Part shown: piece by piece, positions 12,192 through 48,527 of the stretch
Position numbering within the stretch: the first letter of the stretch is position 1
How the letters are laid out: every line of letters begins with the position of its first letter
Origin: Turicibacter bilis
Lineage (GTDB): Bacteria; Bacillota_I; Bacilli_A; MOL361; Turicibacteraceae
NCBI RefSeq assembly: GCF_024499055.1
Contig: NZ_CP071249.1
Coordinates: 868,001 to 932,000 of the forward strand
Reading direction: 5' to 3'
DNA: 64,000 nt
Position numbers and translations under genes: made by a program
The notes under the pieces: generated by a model
The model's database searches: none
Seen by the model: only the letters and a program-made list of their open reading frames with translations
What the model was told of the DNA's origin: nothing

Positions 12192-15100
12192 CTATTTTCT
12201 AAAATAAGCCTGACTTCCTGCACCATCCGTTTCAACAATCAATTTAGCTGGAATTCTTTCTTTTAATTCATTCACATGTGAAATTACACCAATTAATCGA
12301 CCATGATCCTGTAACTCCATTAAAATATCAATTGCTTGATCAAGCGACTCCGAATCAAGCGTTCCAAATCCTTCATCAATAAACATCGTATCTAATTGGA
12401 TTCCTCCAGAATTTTGTTGCACTGTATCTGAAAGCCCTAATGCAAGTGCTAGCGAAGCTTTAAAACTCTCACCACCTGATAATGTATTAACGGGACGATT
12501 GTTGCATGTATGACTATCGTAAACATCTAAATCTAATCCTTTACGCCCTACACCTTTAACCTCTTCACGACGAAGTAAATAGTAACGTCGTGAGGTCATC
12601 TTCTGAAGTCTTACATTAGCTGCCGCTAATACCTCATCAAAATAGCTGGATAACACATATGTTTCAAAAGACATCTTTCCACCACTACGTCCATTAGCTA
12701 ATGAGTCTAACTCACCAACAATCGCATACTCTTGTTCTCTCTTTTGAATGATTTGATATTTTTTTGTGATAGAGGCTAGAATCGTCTCATTTTGTTCAAG
12801 GTTCGCCATTAATGTCGCACGATCTTTCGTTATTTCAACCTTTCGACGATCAAGTTCAGCCATCATTTCTTCCAAGACACTTAAATCGACACGATCTTTA
12901 CCTTTTAATTCTTCTTGAAGTATTTCTTGCATCTTCGTTGCCGTATGAAGCTCTTGATAATAATTTTGAACCTGTTGCTCAAGTTGAGCTAATAATTCAA
13001 TCCATTGTTTTGCCTCTTCATAACGTTCAACTGATTCAAAATAAGTTTGAATTTGTTCAAAAAAGACCTCATTAGATTGTTCAAACTGTTCAATATAATA
13101 AGCTAATTGTTGATTAACTTCTTCGATAGCCGCTTTTAAACCAGCGATTTGTGTCGTGACTCGTTGATAATCTGCTTCACTTGAAGAAATATTTTGTTCC
13201 AGTTCAACTTTTCTCAATTCGACCTCACTCATCATTTGATTTAATACCTCTAATGAACGGTAGTTTTCTGGGATACTTTCCTCTAAATCTTTTTTTGAAC
13301 GCTGTTCAGCTTTATAACGGTCCCGTTGCTCTTGAAGTACACCTTGCTTTTGATCAATCTGCTGCTCTAATGGTTCAATCTCAAGCTTCAATTGTGTCAA
13401 TCGTTGAATCTCATTCTCTAATCTTTGAACGTCTAAATGAACTTTTTCAATTAATTGTACTAATTCATGAGTCTCTTTTCTTAACGCCTCACTTAACTGA
13501 TCAGCCACTTCTTGATTTAATCTGAAATCAGATGAAACGACATGTCGTCCTTGTAATGTTTGAACCAATTCATTTAATGAGCGTTGCTCTTCTGATTGGG
13601 TAGTCTGTAACACTGTTAGCTCCTGTTGGACTTGACGCACTTTATTTTCTAATGATTCTACGTCAAAGCGAAACTGATCAAGCTCGTTTTTCGACAAAAT
13701 CTTCTCATCACTACGACGTGGATTTGGATGGTCTAAAGACCCACAGACCGGACAAGCTTGACCCACCTTTAATTCATTCGCTAATCGTATGGCGGCTGCA
13801 TTAATGAACAACTCAGCTTGATGTTCATAAGCGTGACGCTGAGTCGTAGCGTCACTCATCAATTGCTGATAATAAATCTGCTGTGTTTCAATCAAATTCG
13901 TTGTTTTTTCATACGAATGGAGTCGATTAACCAGTGACTGAACATATTCAAAATCTTCATTTAATTTCAACTGTTTCAAATTTAACGTATGTTGTTGATC
14001 TTTAAAAGTCGCTAATTGCAATGTCAATTGCTCCAATTGTGAAACTTCTTGACGTAACACGATTAAACGACCTTCTTCGACTTCAAGTTCTGTCTTTAAT
14101 GTCTGCCCACTTTTTTTAAGACTCTCAAGTAACTGCTGTTTTTGTTCTAACTGAGTAACCCCCTCGATATAACGTGATAAGTCACTCTTTGACTCAATTA
14201 AACCAGCAATTTCCTGTCTTAATGATTCAATGGCAGTGTAGCACTTTTCTACTAAAATGAACTCTGTTTCACACTCTTTTAATGAGTGCATTAACTGCTG
14301 CTGTTTCGTTGCTGTATCCTGTTGCAGGACTTGATATTTCAGACACTCATTCTCTAAATTAATGAGACCTTGTGCAGATTTTGCCTCTTGTATCTGTTTT
14401 TCTCGTTCTGAAATCGAGGCTTGATAATGATTTAATTGTTCTAGTGTTTGAATCACTTGTTCATATTGTGTAAACTTCTCATTCAATCTCATTCCCGCTT
14501 CATGATGAGTGCGATGCTCTTGTATCATTTCATCTAAGCGATTTGACATCTCAGTTAACGTATTCGCCGATGCTTTCCAAACGGCTTGCTGATCTTTAGC
14601 TATTGCTAATACGTTCGTTAATGGCTGTTCTAGCTCAATCACATGTTCTTCATCCGTTTTAATGAGCTTTAACTCTGCCTGAATTGACTTTTGTGTATCT
14701 GCCACCTCTAGCTTCAGTGCATTGGCCTGTTGAGTTAGCTGTTCCTGAATCGTTTTATAAAAATCAGTTCCAAAAATCTTACGTAAGATCTCTTCTTTAT
14801 TCGTTGTATTCGCAAGCAAAAATTCTTTAAAATCTCCTTGTGGAATCATCACAATCTTACGAAATTGCTCAACTTTCAATCCAATGATTTGTTGAATTTG
14901 CTCTTTTACCTCACCATCCTTCGTTATTGGCGCCTGCTCACTTCCTACCTCTAGTAACTCCACTGTTGCAGGAACCTCTCTAAATCCATCCCCACGCTTT
15001 TTCTTTTGAAGTTGCTGGGGGGCACGTGTAATCTGATACGTTTTATCCTTCACTCTAAAACTAAACTCAACCTCAGTTTTTAACTCACTATCCTTTGCAA

Positions 15101-15311
15101 AATCACTGCGGAGCTCTTTTCCTGTACGACTACCTCCACTCGTTTCACCATAAAGCGCATAACAAATGGCATCAAAAATCGTTGTTTTACCTGCACCCGT
15201 TGGTCCTGTCACAACAAAAATATCTTGCCCGTCTAAATCTTCCTTAAAATTCAACGTCGTTTGCTTCGCATAAGGCCCAAAAGCCGTAATCTTTAATGAC
15301 AATGGCTTCAT
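12192..15311 (-). CDS. sbcC: exonuclease SbcC, ATPase subunit
   Basis: A 1039-residue SMC-like ATPase (Rad50 homologue). It has Walker A VTGPTGAGKTTIFDAICYAL at residues 36-55, two long coiled-coil arms, a zinc-hook CPVC (GQACPVCGSLDHP) near residue 520, the ABC signature NTLSGGESFKASLALAL and Walker B TMFIDEGFGTLD near the C-terminus. With SbcD it cleaves hairpins and protein-blocked DNA ends. Its ATG lies one base after the sbcD stop, so it is coupled. Long inverted repeats such as those elsewhere in this window are the substrates known for the complex. Confidence 0.97.
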   Translation of the reverse strand: MKPLSLKITAFGPYAKQTTLNFKEDLDGQDIFVVTGPTGAGKTTIFDAICYALYGETSGGSRTGKELRSDFAKDSELKTEVEFSFRVKDKTYQITRAPQQLQKKKRGDGFREVPATVELLEVGSEQAPITKDGEVKEQIQQIIGLKVEQFRKIVMIPQGDFKEFLLANTTNKEEILRKIFGTDFYKTIQEQLTQQANALKLEVADTQKSIQAELKLIKTDEEHVIELEQPLTNVLAIAKDQQAVWKASANTLTEMSNRLDEMIQEHRTHHEAGMRLNEKFTQYEQVIQTLEQLNHYQASISEREKQIQEAKSAQGLINLENECLKYQVLQQDTATKQQQLMHSLKECETEFILVEKCYTAIESLRQEIAGLIESKSDLSRYIEGVTQLEQKQQLLESLKKSGQTLKTELEVEEGRLIVLRQEVSQLEQLTLQLATFKDQQHTLNLKQLKLNEDFEYVQSLVNRLHSYEKTTNLIETQQIYYQQLMSDATTQRHAYEHQAELFINAAAIRLANELKVGQACPVCGSLDHPNPRRSDEKILSKNELDQFRFDVESLENKVRQVQQELTVLQTTQSEEQRSLNELVQTLQGRHVVSSDFRLNQEVADQLSEALRKETHELVQLIEKVHLDVQRLENEIQRLTQLKLEIEPLEQQIDQKQGVLQEQRDRYKAEQRSKKDLEESIPENYRSLEVLNQMMSEVELRKVELEQNISSSEADYQRVTTQIAGLKAAIEEVNQQLAYYIEQFEQSNEVFFEQIQTYFESVERYEEAKQWIELLAQLEQQVQNYYQELHTATKMQEILQEELKGKDRVDLSVLEEMMAELDRRKVEITKDRATLMANLEQNETILASITKKYQIIQKREQEYAIVGELDSLANGRSGGKMSFETYVLSSYFDEVLAAANVRLQKMTSRRYYLLRREEVKGVGRKGLDLDVYDSHTCNNRPVNTLSGGESFKASLALALGLSDTVQQNSGGIQLDTMFIDEGFGTLDSESLDQAIDILMELQDHGRLIGVISHVNELKERIPAKLIVETDGAGSQAYFRK

Positions 15312-15312
15312 G

Positions 15313-16446
15313 TTAACACTCCCCTCTCAATTGTTGAATTAATTGTGTAATGAGCTGAGCTCCTTCTTCATGGATAGTTTCTCCCTTGTGATGTTCGTAA
15401 AAATCAGCAAACAATTGCTCAGGTGTTTTTTGTTCACGAGCTTGCTTTGTTAATCCGCTTCCTTTAAAGTCACTATTATTTTCAAGGAGATCAAGAATCA
15501 TCACATTCGGATACACTTGACGTAGCTTTGCCATCGGTTCTAATAATTGGCCTTTATCCGTTAAGATGACACGTAAATAATCCTCGCTACCTGGTTGATT
15601 CAACAAATCATCTAACTGTCCTGTTAACGTTCTTAAATCACGTCTTGGCGTTAACGGTAAAAGTTCACACGTTAGCTCTCCTGTTCCACTTAAATCAATC
15701 ATCGTGACCGATTTTTGATAATTTTCTTCTGAAAATGAATACTTGAGTAACGAACCGCTATAACGAATTTTATCACTACCAACTTTTTGTGTTCGATGTA
15801 AATGTCCGAGGGCGACGTAATCAAAAGGCTCAAAATGTGTAGCAGAAACAGACTCTTTTCCCCCAACCACTAATTTTTTCTCTGAATCTGATTCTTGTGG
15901 GTCCTCTCCACCAACAACAAACGCATGCGTGACTAACACGTTACGCTCTTCCTTATTAATCGGGTTAGACTCAAGTGTGACCCTCATTGCCTCATCGAGT
16001 GATTTAATGGTTTCATCTTGATGGGCTTCACGTACAACCGCGTAATCAGCAAAGGGAAGTAAATAAACATTCACAGGTCCATGCTCATCATGTAAAACTA
16101 CTTTTTTCATCTCTTTCGTATAACGCCCCGCTACATAATAATGAGCAGCTTCAAATAATTCATGACCAAAACTAATTAAATCCGCCCCATCATGATTGCC
16201 TGCCACCGCTAAAACTGGCGTCTTTAACTCCATTAATACATCTCTTAAAAACTGACTATACAATGAAACCGCACGGGCAGGTGGAACACTTCGATCATAA
16301 ATATCTCCTGCTAACAAAACAGCATCTGGTTTATACTTTTTAACATACTCTTTTACCTGCTCTAACACATACTGTTGATCCTCAATCATTGAAAATGAAT
16401 TAACAATTTTACCAAAATGTAAATCTCCTAAATGTAAAAACCTCAA
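15313..16446 (-). CDS. sbcD: exonuclease SbcD, nuclease subunit
   Basis: A 377-residue Mre11-type metallophosphoesterase. The motifs in order are FLHLGDLHFGK, LLAGDIYDRSVPP, VAGNHDGADL, VTHAFVVGG and ALGHLHRTQ, which bind two Mn ions. I choose the TTG at 16446 because GAGGAGG lies 7 bases upstream and the protein then begins directly with LRFLHLGD. The ATG at 16485 overlaps the -10 box of the promoter and would add 13 residues of no homology. Confidence 0.95.
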   Translation of the reverse strand: MRFLHLGDLHFGKIVNSFSMIEDQQYVLEQVKEYVKKYKPDAVLLAGDIYDRSVPPARAVSLYSQFLRDVLMELKTPVLAVAGNHDGADLISFGHELFEAAHYYVAGRYTKEMKKVVLHDEHGPVNVYLLPFADYAVVREAHQDETIKSLDEAMRVTLESNPINKEERNVLVTHAFVVGGEDPQESDSEKKLVVGGKESVSATHFEPFDYVALGHLHRTQKVGSDKIRYSGSLLKYSFSEENYQKSVTMIDLSGTGELTCELLPLTPRRDLRTLTGQLDDLLNQPGSEDYLRVILTDKGQLLEPMAKLRQVYPNVMILDLLENNSDFKGSGLTKQAREQKTPEQLFADFYEHHKGETIHEEGAQLITQLIQQLRGEC

Positions 16447-16483
16447 ACCAATTTCCTCCTCAAAAAAGCGAATATTTGTTCTC

Positions 16484-16513
16484 ATTATAAGCTTTTTTTA
16501 CAAGAACCGTCAA
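16484..16513 (-). promoter_or_regulatory. sigma-A type promoter of sbcDC
   Basis: On the minus strand TTGACG, 18 bases, TATAAT. It ends about 37 bases before the TTG start of sbcD and confirms that the upstream ATG is not used. Confidence 0.75.
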
Positions 16514-16804: not shown

Positions 16805-17170
16805 CTATATAAGTCCAGATAAACTTTCTTCAGAGAAAATTTAAAGCCCTAGTAATGGAAGAATAGACTTCTTTCAGAAATCGCTAGGTGACCCAAGCCC
16901 TAGTAATGGAGGAATAGATTTCTTTCAGAAATCGCTAGGTGACCCAAGCCCTAGTAATGGAGGAATAGATTTCTTTCAGAAATCGCTAGGTGACCCAGCC
17001 CTATCAGTGGATGATACATTTTCTTCCAAAATGCTAGGGAACCCATTCCCTAGCAATGGTGGATTGTTTCACAAGTGAAACTGCTAGGTGACCCATTCCC
17101 TAGCAATGGTAGATTGTTTCACAAGTGAAACTGCTAGGTGACCCCCGGACGATAGGCTGTCTCGATAGGT
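16805..17170 (+). repeat. tandem hairpin-repeat array, six units (family copy 1)
   Basis: Starts with the end motif TATATAAGTCCAGATAA and a weak hairpin. Then come six units of 48-51 bases at 16846, 16897, 16948, 16998, 17046 and 17096. It closes with GGACGATAGGCTGTCTC. Each unit has an outer pair CCTAG.A/T..CTAGG, an inner hairpin and the trailer GTGACCC. Units 1-3 are nearly identical (GATTTC/GAAATC stem), units 5-6 nearly identical (GTTTCAC/GTGAAAC stem), and unit 4 differs (CATTTT/AAAATG). The same family recurs at 44.3, 48.25 and 48.46 kb. Confidence 0.85.
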
Positions 17171-17416
17171 ACAACATATCAGTATTTTTTACTTGCTACT
17201 TGAGAGGTAGACTACTTATTTGTTTATATATCGTTTTTTTTATGGATTATTGACATAATCACTCATTTCAAATCAAGTTGTACTATCAATTCTTCAAGGA
17301 TGGTACAAGCTCATTTAATTACTTCAAAATCATTGCTTAACTCTGTAAAAAAAATATATACTATTAACAGACAACTTTTTTTAAAAACAAAAATGACTTG
17401 ATAAGGGGCGATATTT

Positions 17417-39079: not shown

Positions 39080-39309
39080 ATTAGCACCACCATTTCTACT
39101 AAATTCGTTAAAGTCATTGCTGTGTCAGTCATCTATCTATATAGAAACAGATCAATCATTTACATTGCCTAACTCAAAGTTATAGTCTTAAACTATCCTA
39201 AACTAAGGCTAACGCCAGAAATAATCACGTTTACCGATGTAAAAAAACGACTGTTTCTTCTATATATTATCCTGCTAAAACACAGATTCTCATGCAATCA
39301 TTTCTGAAA

Positions 39310-43992: not shown

Positions 43993-44311
43993 TGCACCAA
44001 AATTCGTGAAAAGTGGAAATTGCTTTTTCACTCTATTTAATCGTTTTATGTATCAAATCACATATAATTTTATTATCACCGACGTTACTTAAATCAATCC
44101 ATCTTTTTCTTATTTTTTAAATTTGAACATCTACTCATTAAATATTCATTTTTAAAAAAACATTTACCGTCATGAGCAGGAAAAAATAAAAGATCAACCC
44201 TACCTAACTAAAACCAAAGATTTCTACTCATTCAAACACGATGACAAATCTATATAGAAACAGAAACCTTTTCTACATTTAATATAGCAACTCAAATATA
44301 TGATAGTCATA

Positions 44312-44526
44312 CCGTGAGTCACCTGCCATGCGAAGCATGTTTCCTCCATTGGTAGGGAATGCAAGGCAGACTATCGTCCAGGGGTCACCTAGCAGCTTCA
44401 CTTGTGAAACAATCCACCATTGCTAGGGAATGGGTCACCTGGCAGATTGTCGAAGACAATCTAATCCTCAACTGCTAGGGATTTAAAATTTTTTACAATG
44501 TAAAAAACTTATCTGGACTTATATAT
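44312..44526 (-). repeat. hairpin-repeat array, three units (family copy 2)
   Basis: Read on the minus strand: TATATAAGTCCAGATAAG, a hairpin GTTTTTTAC/GTAAAAAAC, a unit with inner stem GATTGT-CTTCG-ACAATC, and a unit almost identical to units 5-6 of copy 1. Then comes the end motif GGACGATAGTCTG, followed by one more unit with inner stem CATG-CTTCG-CATG. Orientation is opposite to copy 1. It lies in a 715-base gap between cvfB and the next gene. Confidence 0.85.
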
Positions 44527-47993: not shown

Positions 47994-48251
47994 CAATCTC
48001 CCCCCTCTTTTATCTATCATTTTACTAGCTTTACTCCAAAAAAACAAACGCTACCTTAAATGATAAATAAGAAATCATCATTTTTATAAATCATAAAAAT
48101 TTACTGTTTCTATTATTAGCCTATGTGATAAACATTTAATGAGTTTAAGACTTATACCTTCAATAAATAAGCTTCATGTGTGACTATATATAAGCCGAAA
48201 TATCTTTCAAATTTTTTGAATAATACATAGTTCTTAAGGCTTTTTGATACT

Positions 48252-48404
48252 CGGTCACCTACCATGCGAAGCATTAATCCTCAACTGGCAGGGTATAAGA
48301 CATCCTATAGTCCAGGGGTCACGTGTCATTTTCGAAGAAAATGTATCCTGCATTGGCAGGGCTTAAGTTTTTACGACGTGAAAAACTTATCGGGACTGAT
48401 ATAT
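48252..48404 (-). repeat. hairpin-repeat array, two units (family copy 3)
   Basis: Minus strand: TATATCAGTCCCGATAAG, a hairpin AAGTTTTT/AAAAACTT, a unit with inner stem CATTTT-CTTCG-AAAATG, the end motif GGACTATAGGATGTC, and a further unit with inner stem ATG-CTTCG-CAT. It lies in the gap between the VOC gene and ppi (47994-48564), whose remaining bases show no gene. Confidence 0.82.
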
Positions 48405-48463
48405 AAACAAAAAAGTTTTTCACATTATTTACTTCAGACTAAAACCATAAAAACATTGATATC

Positions 48464-48527
48464 AAGACATCCTATAGTCCAATTAAATTTTTTTACGATA
48501 TGAAAAAATTAATGCAACTTATATATA
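48464..48527 (-). repeat. hairpin-repeat family member with no repeat unit (copy 4)
   Basis: Minus strand: TATATAAGTTGC, a hairpin TTAATTTTTTC/AAAAAAATTTAA, then directly GGACTATAGGATGTC. Both ends of the family are present but the CCTAG...GTGACCC unit is absent. Confidence 0.7.

Follow-up and report, generated by a model that had tools for sequence, protein, structure and literature searches.

What kind of sequence is repeated, in both orientations, in the intergenic regions of a 64,000-nucleotide stretch of Turicibacter bilis DNA (hereafter, the window), which belongs to a genome of 2.79 Mb in a single contig? The initial annotation recorded copies at 16.8, 44.3, 48.25 and 48.46 kb, treated hairpin units and end motifs as one family, and took the kept pairing of the inner stems as the mark of selection on a folded RNA or single-stranded DNA. 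All four copies are present in the sequence, and further genomic copies occur far beyond chance, with 49 blastn matches to one query in the same genome and 145 units detected there by a covariance model (E ≤ 0.01). The repeats are therefore real; however, rather than one family, they probably represent two non-autonomous mobile elements, one nested in the other, namely an IS630-type MITE outside and a hairpin unit inside, with solo units also found within genes (Table 1).

Table 1 Repeat elements and their parts in the window (positions within the window).
Feature	Position	Strand	Basis or remark
Complete MITE with six units	16806..17233	+	5′ and 3′ module matches; ends TATATAAGTCC..GTTTATATATCG; the initial annotation stopped at 17170
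5′ module: terminal repeat TATATAAGTCCAGATAA and hairpin	16806..16846	+	nhmmer match; matches right end of IS630 copy
Unit 1, GATTTC-type inner stem with mismatch	16847..16894	+	
Unit 2, GATTTCT/AGAAATC	16898..16945	+	
Unit 3, GATTTCT/AGAAATC	16949..16996	+	
Unit 4, CATTTT/AAAATG	16999..17044	+	
Unit 5, GTTTCAC/GTGAAAC	17048..17094	+	
Unit 6, GTTTCAC/GTGAAAC	17098..17144	+	
3′ module with terminal repeat	17145..17233	+	nhmmer E 2.5e-10
Complete MITE, two array units and a third unit within the 3′ module	44250..44525	-	
Unit, GATTGTC/GACAATC	44432..44480	-	
Unit, GTTTCAC/GTGAAGC	44382..44428	-	
Unit CATGC/GCATG in 3′ module, TTGC^ACGG to TTGC-ATT-unit-ACGG	44316..44357	-	Unit-free 3′ module at G000:2058189
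MITE, one array unit and one within the 3′ module	48184..48403	-	Distal 3′ module matches weakly, E 0.066
Unit, CATTTTC/GAAAATG	48316..48361	-	
Unit ATGC/GCAT in 3′ module, CTT^AGTAT to CTT-ATA-unit-AGTAT	48252..48293	-	Unit-free 3′ module at G000:29273
Unit-less MITE, sharing the TATATA junction with MITE 48184..48403	48399..48525	-	3′ module E 2.9e-8; 5′ end by eye
Probable unit-less MITE, similar terminal repeats TATATAGAAACAG..CTTCTATATA	39138..39266	.	Sequence; weak 3′-module match, E 0.72

A complete element begins with a 5′ module (TATATAAGTCCAGATAAG plus a hairpin), contains between zero and nine units, and finishes with a 3′ module running from CTGGAC(T/G)ATAGG to ...CTGTTTATATATAG, the boundaries being read from the better part of the 49 blastn matches with their flanks. 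The motif GGAC.ATAGG.TGTC, formerly given as the end of the repeat, lies inside it: the element continues for another ~60-90 nt. The window copies contain six units at 16.8 kb (plus strand), three at 44.3 kb and two at 48.25 kb (both minus strand), and none at 48.46 kb, where both end modules are present; unit-less copies measure 128-131 bp. In the sequence gathered around matches, where many units are flanked by 5′ and 3′ modules, 50 5′ modules could be matched to 49 distinct 3′ modules (the window's own genome, G000, accounts for 40 pairings and G001 for 10; these are not genome totals). The outer stem GTCC/GGAC of the MITE has the same four pairs in 34 of the 50 pairings, and both sides are changed in one.

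The MITE is dispersed and multi-copy, lacks a transposase gene, and has two ends that match those of an IS630-family transposon carried by the same genome. A 26-nt pattern of the MITE 3′ end, allowing up to 3 mismatches, occurs at 17 places in the genome (reversed control, 0), two of which (1449041 and 1542329) are left ends of the IS630 element. The right end of the first IS630 copy, CAGATAAGTTTTTCACAT, is identical to the MITE 5′ end, and that of the second is altered in its last bases. The IS630 element, ~1.18 kb long, contains a pair of overlapping frames (172 and 177 aa); the second exceeds the cut-off for DDE_3 and NF033545 (transpos_IS630), and the first falls just under that for NF033545 (97.6 of 100 bits). 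By its sequence, this MITE is an ordinary representative of the IS630 type (IS630/Tc1-mariner). The MITE and the transposase do not strictly co-occur, because 5′-module matches are found in all five genomes of the genus and the IS630 transposase in two (E ≤ 1e-10), G002, G003 and G004 having the former without a match to the latter.

At the 16.8-kb locus, G001-G004 have a shorter, element-free intergenic region, as do G002 and G003 at the 48-kb locus. MITE ends lie in TATATA, and at least two pairs of MITEs abut at this sequence; duplication of a TA target would be expected. Since no base-resolved empty site was found, the empty-site search of the sequence gathered around matches returning two self-matches only, we infer the TA target from the ends, which suggest that the two-frame IS630 transposase would mobilise the MITE in trans into TA-rich, mostly intergenic DNA. 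In the region beside the 16.8-kb array (window 12192-16485), an SbcD-like gene adjoins the array, and behind this gene lies a 1039-aa frame that may be SbcC. SbcCD cuts DNA hairpins; the proximity is probably a coincidence.

The unit, 40-64 nt in length (about 45), has the fold CCCTRSY-ARTGGAGGAWW-variable hairpin-SYAGG-TGACCC, in which an outer stem of 6-7 bp (CCTRSY/RSYAGG) is followed by a tail (TGACCC/GAACCC) and accompanied by a conserved one-sided bulge, ARTGGAGGAWW, with a GGAGG core; the inner hairpin, stacked on the outer stem, varies freely in sequence and length. Both stems covary far beyond shuffles. Among 28 hand-picked seed units, 85.8% of cells pair, compared to 74.9 ± 1.3 in shuffled alignments, and among 150 model-aligned units (116 distinct rows; the best 150 of 204 matches in 73 chosen sources), 90.3% pair compared to 78.2 ± 0.6. 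In the latter alignment, which was fitted to the structure and in which related copies inflate the counts, there are 159 double-changed cells (59.3 ± 7.0 shuffled) and the covariation score is 0.272 (0.119 ± 0.007 shuffled; at most 0.048 for slid versions). Two of the five covariation measures were unremarkable, namely double-change pairs, reached by 184 of 500 shuffles, and further pair types, reached by 60 of 500. Outer-stem position 5 is non-standard in 48 of the 116 distinct rows, in all 48 cases A.C. The initial claim that the inner stems differ and always pair was slightly too strong: they differ and nearly always pair, the unit at 16847 being mismatched.

Two further arrangements of units were observed. 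In sequence L160 (6206-6630; G000:2351.2-2351.6 kb), a recent expansion has produced an array of seven almost identical units in tandem, which belong to a 58-nt type whose inner stem is long. In L023 (G000:1095.9-1096.9 kb), GGGAACCC-type units and a TTATCCAGGTGG-containing spacer form a larger repeat, and MITE ends are not visible there.

The statement that all copies are intergenic holds for the four window copies but not for the units elsewhere, some of which lie within transposase genes. A lone unit occurs in an IS3-family gene of G001, at the place of the window's 44-kb region, and an alignment of 14 of the 22 matched IS3 places revealed five sites (A-E) at which certain copies carry an exact insert that the others lack. 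When the comparison was widened to 199 units, grouped in 114 clusters, an empty counterpart was identified for 47 of the 113 clusters whose flanks are complete, three self-matches among 50 apparent empty sites having been dropped; in 29 of the 47, each flank is at least 90% identical. There are 12 distinct sites in transposase genes, assigned by Pfam to IS3-type (6), IS66 (4) and ISL3 (2) elements; the IS3-type site at G001:1611310 is at a frame edge. All resolved genic sites are in transposase genes, and the other units lie in MITE tandem arrays and intergenic DNA. The cleanest sites are those of six ISL3 copies in G003, with flanks 97-100% identical to the empty copy; the unit at G004:1395095 has flanks 98% identical to the empty G000:984644. 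At IS3 site C, the edges of filled and empty copies differ by several bases, and at site 1271994 the empty copy, which reads ATTCCCT, might be a deletion.

The insert consists of a 3-nt leader and the hairpin (CCC...CCC), with neither MITE end module. Leaders were compared at 35 distinct sites (single units with non-MITE flanks, near-identical flanks merged; a few edges of decayed arrays remain), the commonest being ATT (11/35) and ATA (7/35). The base before the leader is C at 20 sites, and the right flank begins with ATT at 11 and ATC at 4; a similar 3-nt leader separates most units within arrays. A 3-nt target duplication (AAT), suggested by the first IS3 sites, was dropped because the left and right triplets agree at 5 of the 35 sites, no more than expected by shuffling (4.2). 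The empty and filled paralogues show that the unit inserts precisely, as leader plus hairpin, without target duplication.

Counting each site once, 9 of the 12 genic sites are antisense and 3 sense (11 sites come from one list; IS3 site E comes from the IS3 alignment only). The frame is shifted in the G003 ISL3 copies (net +44) and at IS3 site D (+49), and some sites bring stops; the ISL3 unit at G004:1395095 is in frame and adds 15 codons, none of them a stop. IS elements that bear units nevertheless occur in several copies, as in the six G003 ISL3 copies, which were presumably moved in trans by intact relatives. Different unit types occupy one site in sister IS66 copies (G000:346835, 237377, 1270551 and 2419643, compared to the empty 2381131) and at two ISL3 sites, three sites in all, which could reflect target specificity or in-place replacement, not only insertion. 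Another insertion, a hairpin of 20 nt (TACCCGCAAGGGGTACGCCG and variants), is seen at column 955 of the IS3 alignment in 5 of the 14 copies (L160, L175, L204 and others) and is possibly a further tiny mobile hairpin.

At E ≤ 0.01, covariance model R1, with up to 150 candidates scored per genome, detected 145 units in G000, 54 in G001, 47 in G003, 27 in G004 and 14 in G002. Among 247 genomes of the class, searched with stricter filters and 24 candidates scored per genome among the matches listed, six matched, namely all five genus members and one further genome of the family, G006, the only match among the 242 genomes outside the genus. G006 has two weak matches, one of which reads as a unit-like hairpin, CCCCATTAATGGTGGATACATTTTC..GCGGGGACCCC (L207, G006:C101:7583-7628), in another genus of the family and, by eye, apparently within a gene. 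Of 60 genomes, five were matched by the blastn query; all five, its own among them, belong to the genus. An exact pattern matched only Turicibacter sp. UBA7094 in genome_contigs (where near records may be omitted) and found no match among the IMG/VR viral contigs; blastn of one array gave no match in plasmids. Because units are present in all five genomes of the genus and the IS630 transposase in two, the units are independent of this transposase.

The fold and the insertion sites suggest that units would move by a separate route that recognises the strand in its folded form and creates no duplication, resembling single-strand transposition. The kept pairing with drifting stem sequence would be most simply explained by a moving enzyme that recognises a folded single strand, comparable to REP or IS200/IS605. 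A Y1 transposase (PF01797) is present in four of the five genus genomes and gave no match in G004, the carrier of 27 units; the association of Y1 with repeats expected of a RAYT was not found across the five. An IS200-like transposase was considered as the mover and rejected, the ends of two copies reading without a unit-like hairpin; nhmmer matches near the IS200-like copies correspond to a neighbouring unit array.

Could the units be a mere repeat module of the MITE, like boxB of BOX, with solo units as remnants of decayed MITEs? Many units do lie between 5′ and 3′ modules; however, the transposase-gene inserts consist of leader and unit without end modules, their flanks reach as much as 100% identity with the empty copy, and G003 and G004 carry units without an IS630 transposase match, which makes this explanation improbable. 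Equally improbable is a functional structured RNA, a cis-regulator or sRNA, copied around by the MITE. The covariation, the conserved bulge with its GGAGG core and the A.C kept at one outer-stem position would fit such an RNA, but units lie inside transposase frames in both orientations, and Rfam at the gathering threshold returned a single tRNA and no other match in the window. Thus, of the original claim of selection on folded RNA or single-stranded DNA, the covariation is real and the kept fold fits a mobile hairpin, the RNA part being disfavored: so far, the repeats have the appearance of mobile DNA whose fold is maintained, rather than of regulatory RNA.

The pairing could also be kept by mutation, with quasi-palindrome template switching using one arm to repair the other. 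Such repair, to which hairpin DNA is prone, produces inner stems that pair perfectly although their sequences are unrelated. Nevertheless, we consider this unlikely: the conserved bulge and tail require another cause, and repair should have removed the A.C mismatch from the 48 rows that have it. Translational bypassing or tolerated in-frame insertion (byp- or RPE-like), whereby ribosomes skip or read through units, was considered when the first genic sites were all antisense. That the G004:1395095 unit is in frame without a stop and that unit-bearing IS copies are multi-copy would agree with it, but the frame shifts and stops elsewhere and the presence of both orientations in the full set of sites leave it hardly credible. 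Nested mobile elements, an IS630-type MITE and a hairpin unit, therefore remain our preferred reading.

REP/REPIN elements with RAYT, and IS200/IS605 elements, are small mobile DNA defined by hairpins and inserted without target duplication, features that the unit shares. REP elements carry a GTAG-type tag; in contrast, no such tag was noticed in the units, no RAYT was identified, and G004 gave no Y1 match. The small dispersed repeats of cyanobacteria, reportedly described by Elhai et al. in 2008, are said to be very small mobile hairpins of ~21-27 nt nested in other repeats; going by this description, the Turicibacter unit is likewise a tiny nested mobile hairpin, but a longer one.

The remark that no named family has this layout was partly right: in the available text on BOX of Streptococcus pneumoniae and S. 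suis (Croucher et al. 2011, PMC3049150), an A-Bn-C plan with variable middle modules and strong predicted stem-loops is described, the terminal repeats are likened to a resident IS (ISSpn2), and repeats are nested in one another. The Turicibacter element is also A-Bn-C in plan, with n = 0-9; however, its middle module also stands alone at exact genic insertion sites, for which that text holds no counterpart in BOX (PMC3049150). RUP, according to the portions available, is a simple 107-bp repeat paired with IS630-Spn1 (PMC3049150, PMC2229807, PMC10969869); like RUP and bacterial MITEs as described there, the Turicibacter MITE is non-autonomous and has the terminal repeats of an IS630-family transposon of the same genome, but unlike RUP it harbours a second mobile element arrayed in tandem. 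Rickettsia palindromic elements, in the same partial sources (PMC2229807, PMC10969869), are 105-150 bp long and in frame, many of them in conserved genes. The Turicibacter units are likewise palindromic mobile repeats found within protein genes, but they are shorter than the elements these sources describe, and their 12 resolved genic sites fall within IS transposases, where several units lie out of frame or introduce stops.

Tentatively, and at somewhat less than even confidence, the unit may constitute a distinct minimal mobile class of ~45 nt, defined mainly by its fold of two stems and a conserved bulge. A putative enzyme that reads hairpins would move it without duplicating the target, and it would be a specialised parasite of other mobile elements, such that BOX-type repeats would arise when hairpins colonise a MITE. 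Among the literature matches listed, there was no paper on repeats of Turicibacter, and in the accessible parts of the literature on BOX, REP, RPE and MITEs, a middle module alone at exact sites was not found described. BOX and other modular repeats were described long ago, and in these parts of the literature we met no account of the origin of their middle modules. Turicibacter has cultured members, and with a solo module whose leader is defined, whose stems covary and whose exact sites are seen both empty and filled, both the origin of the arrays and the moving enzyme become testable.
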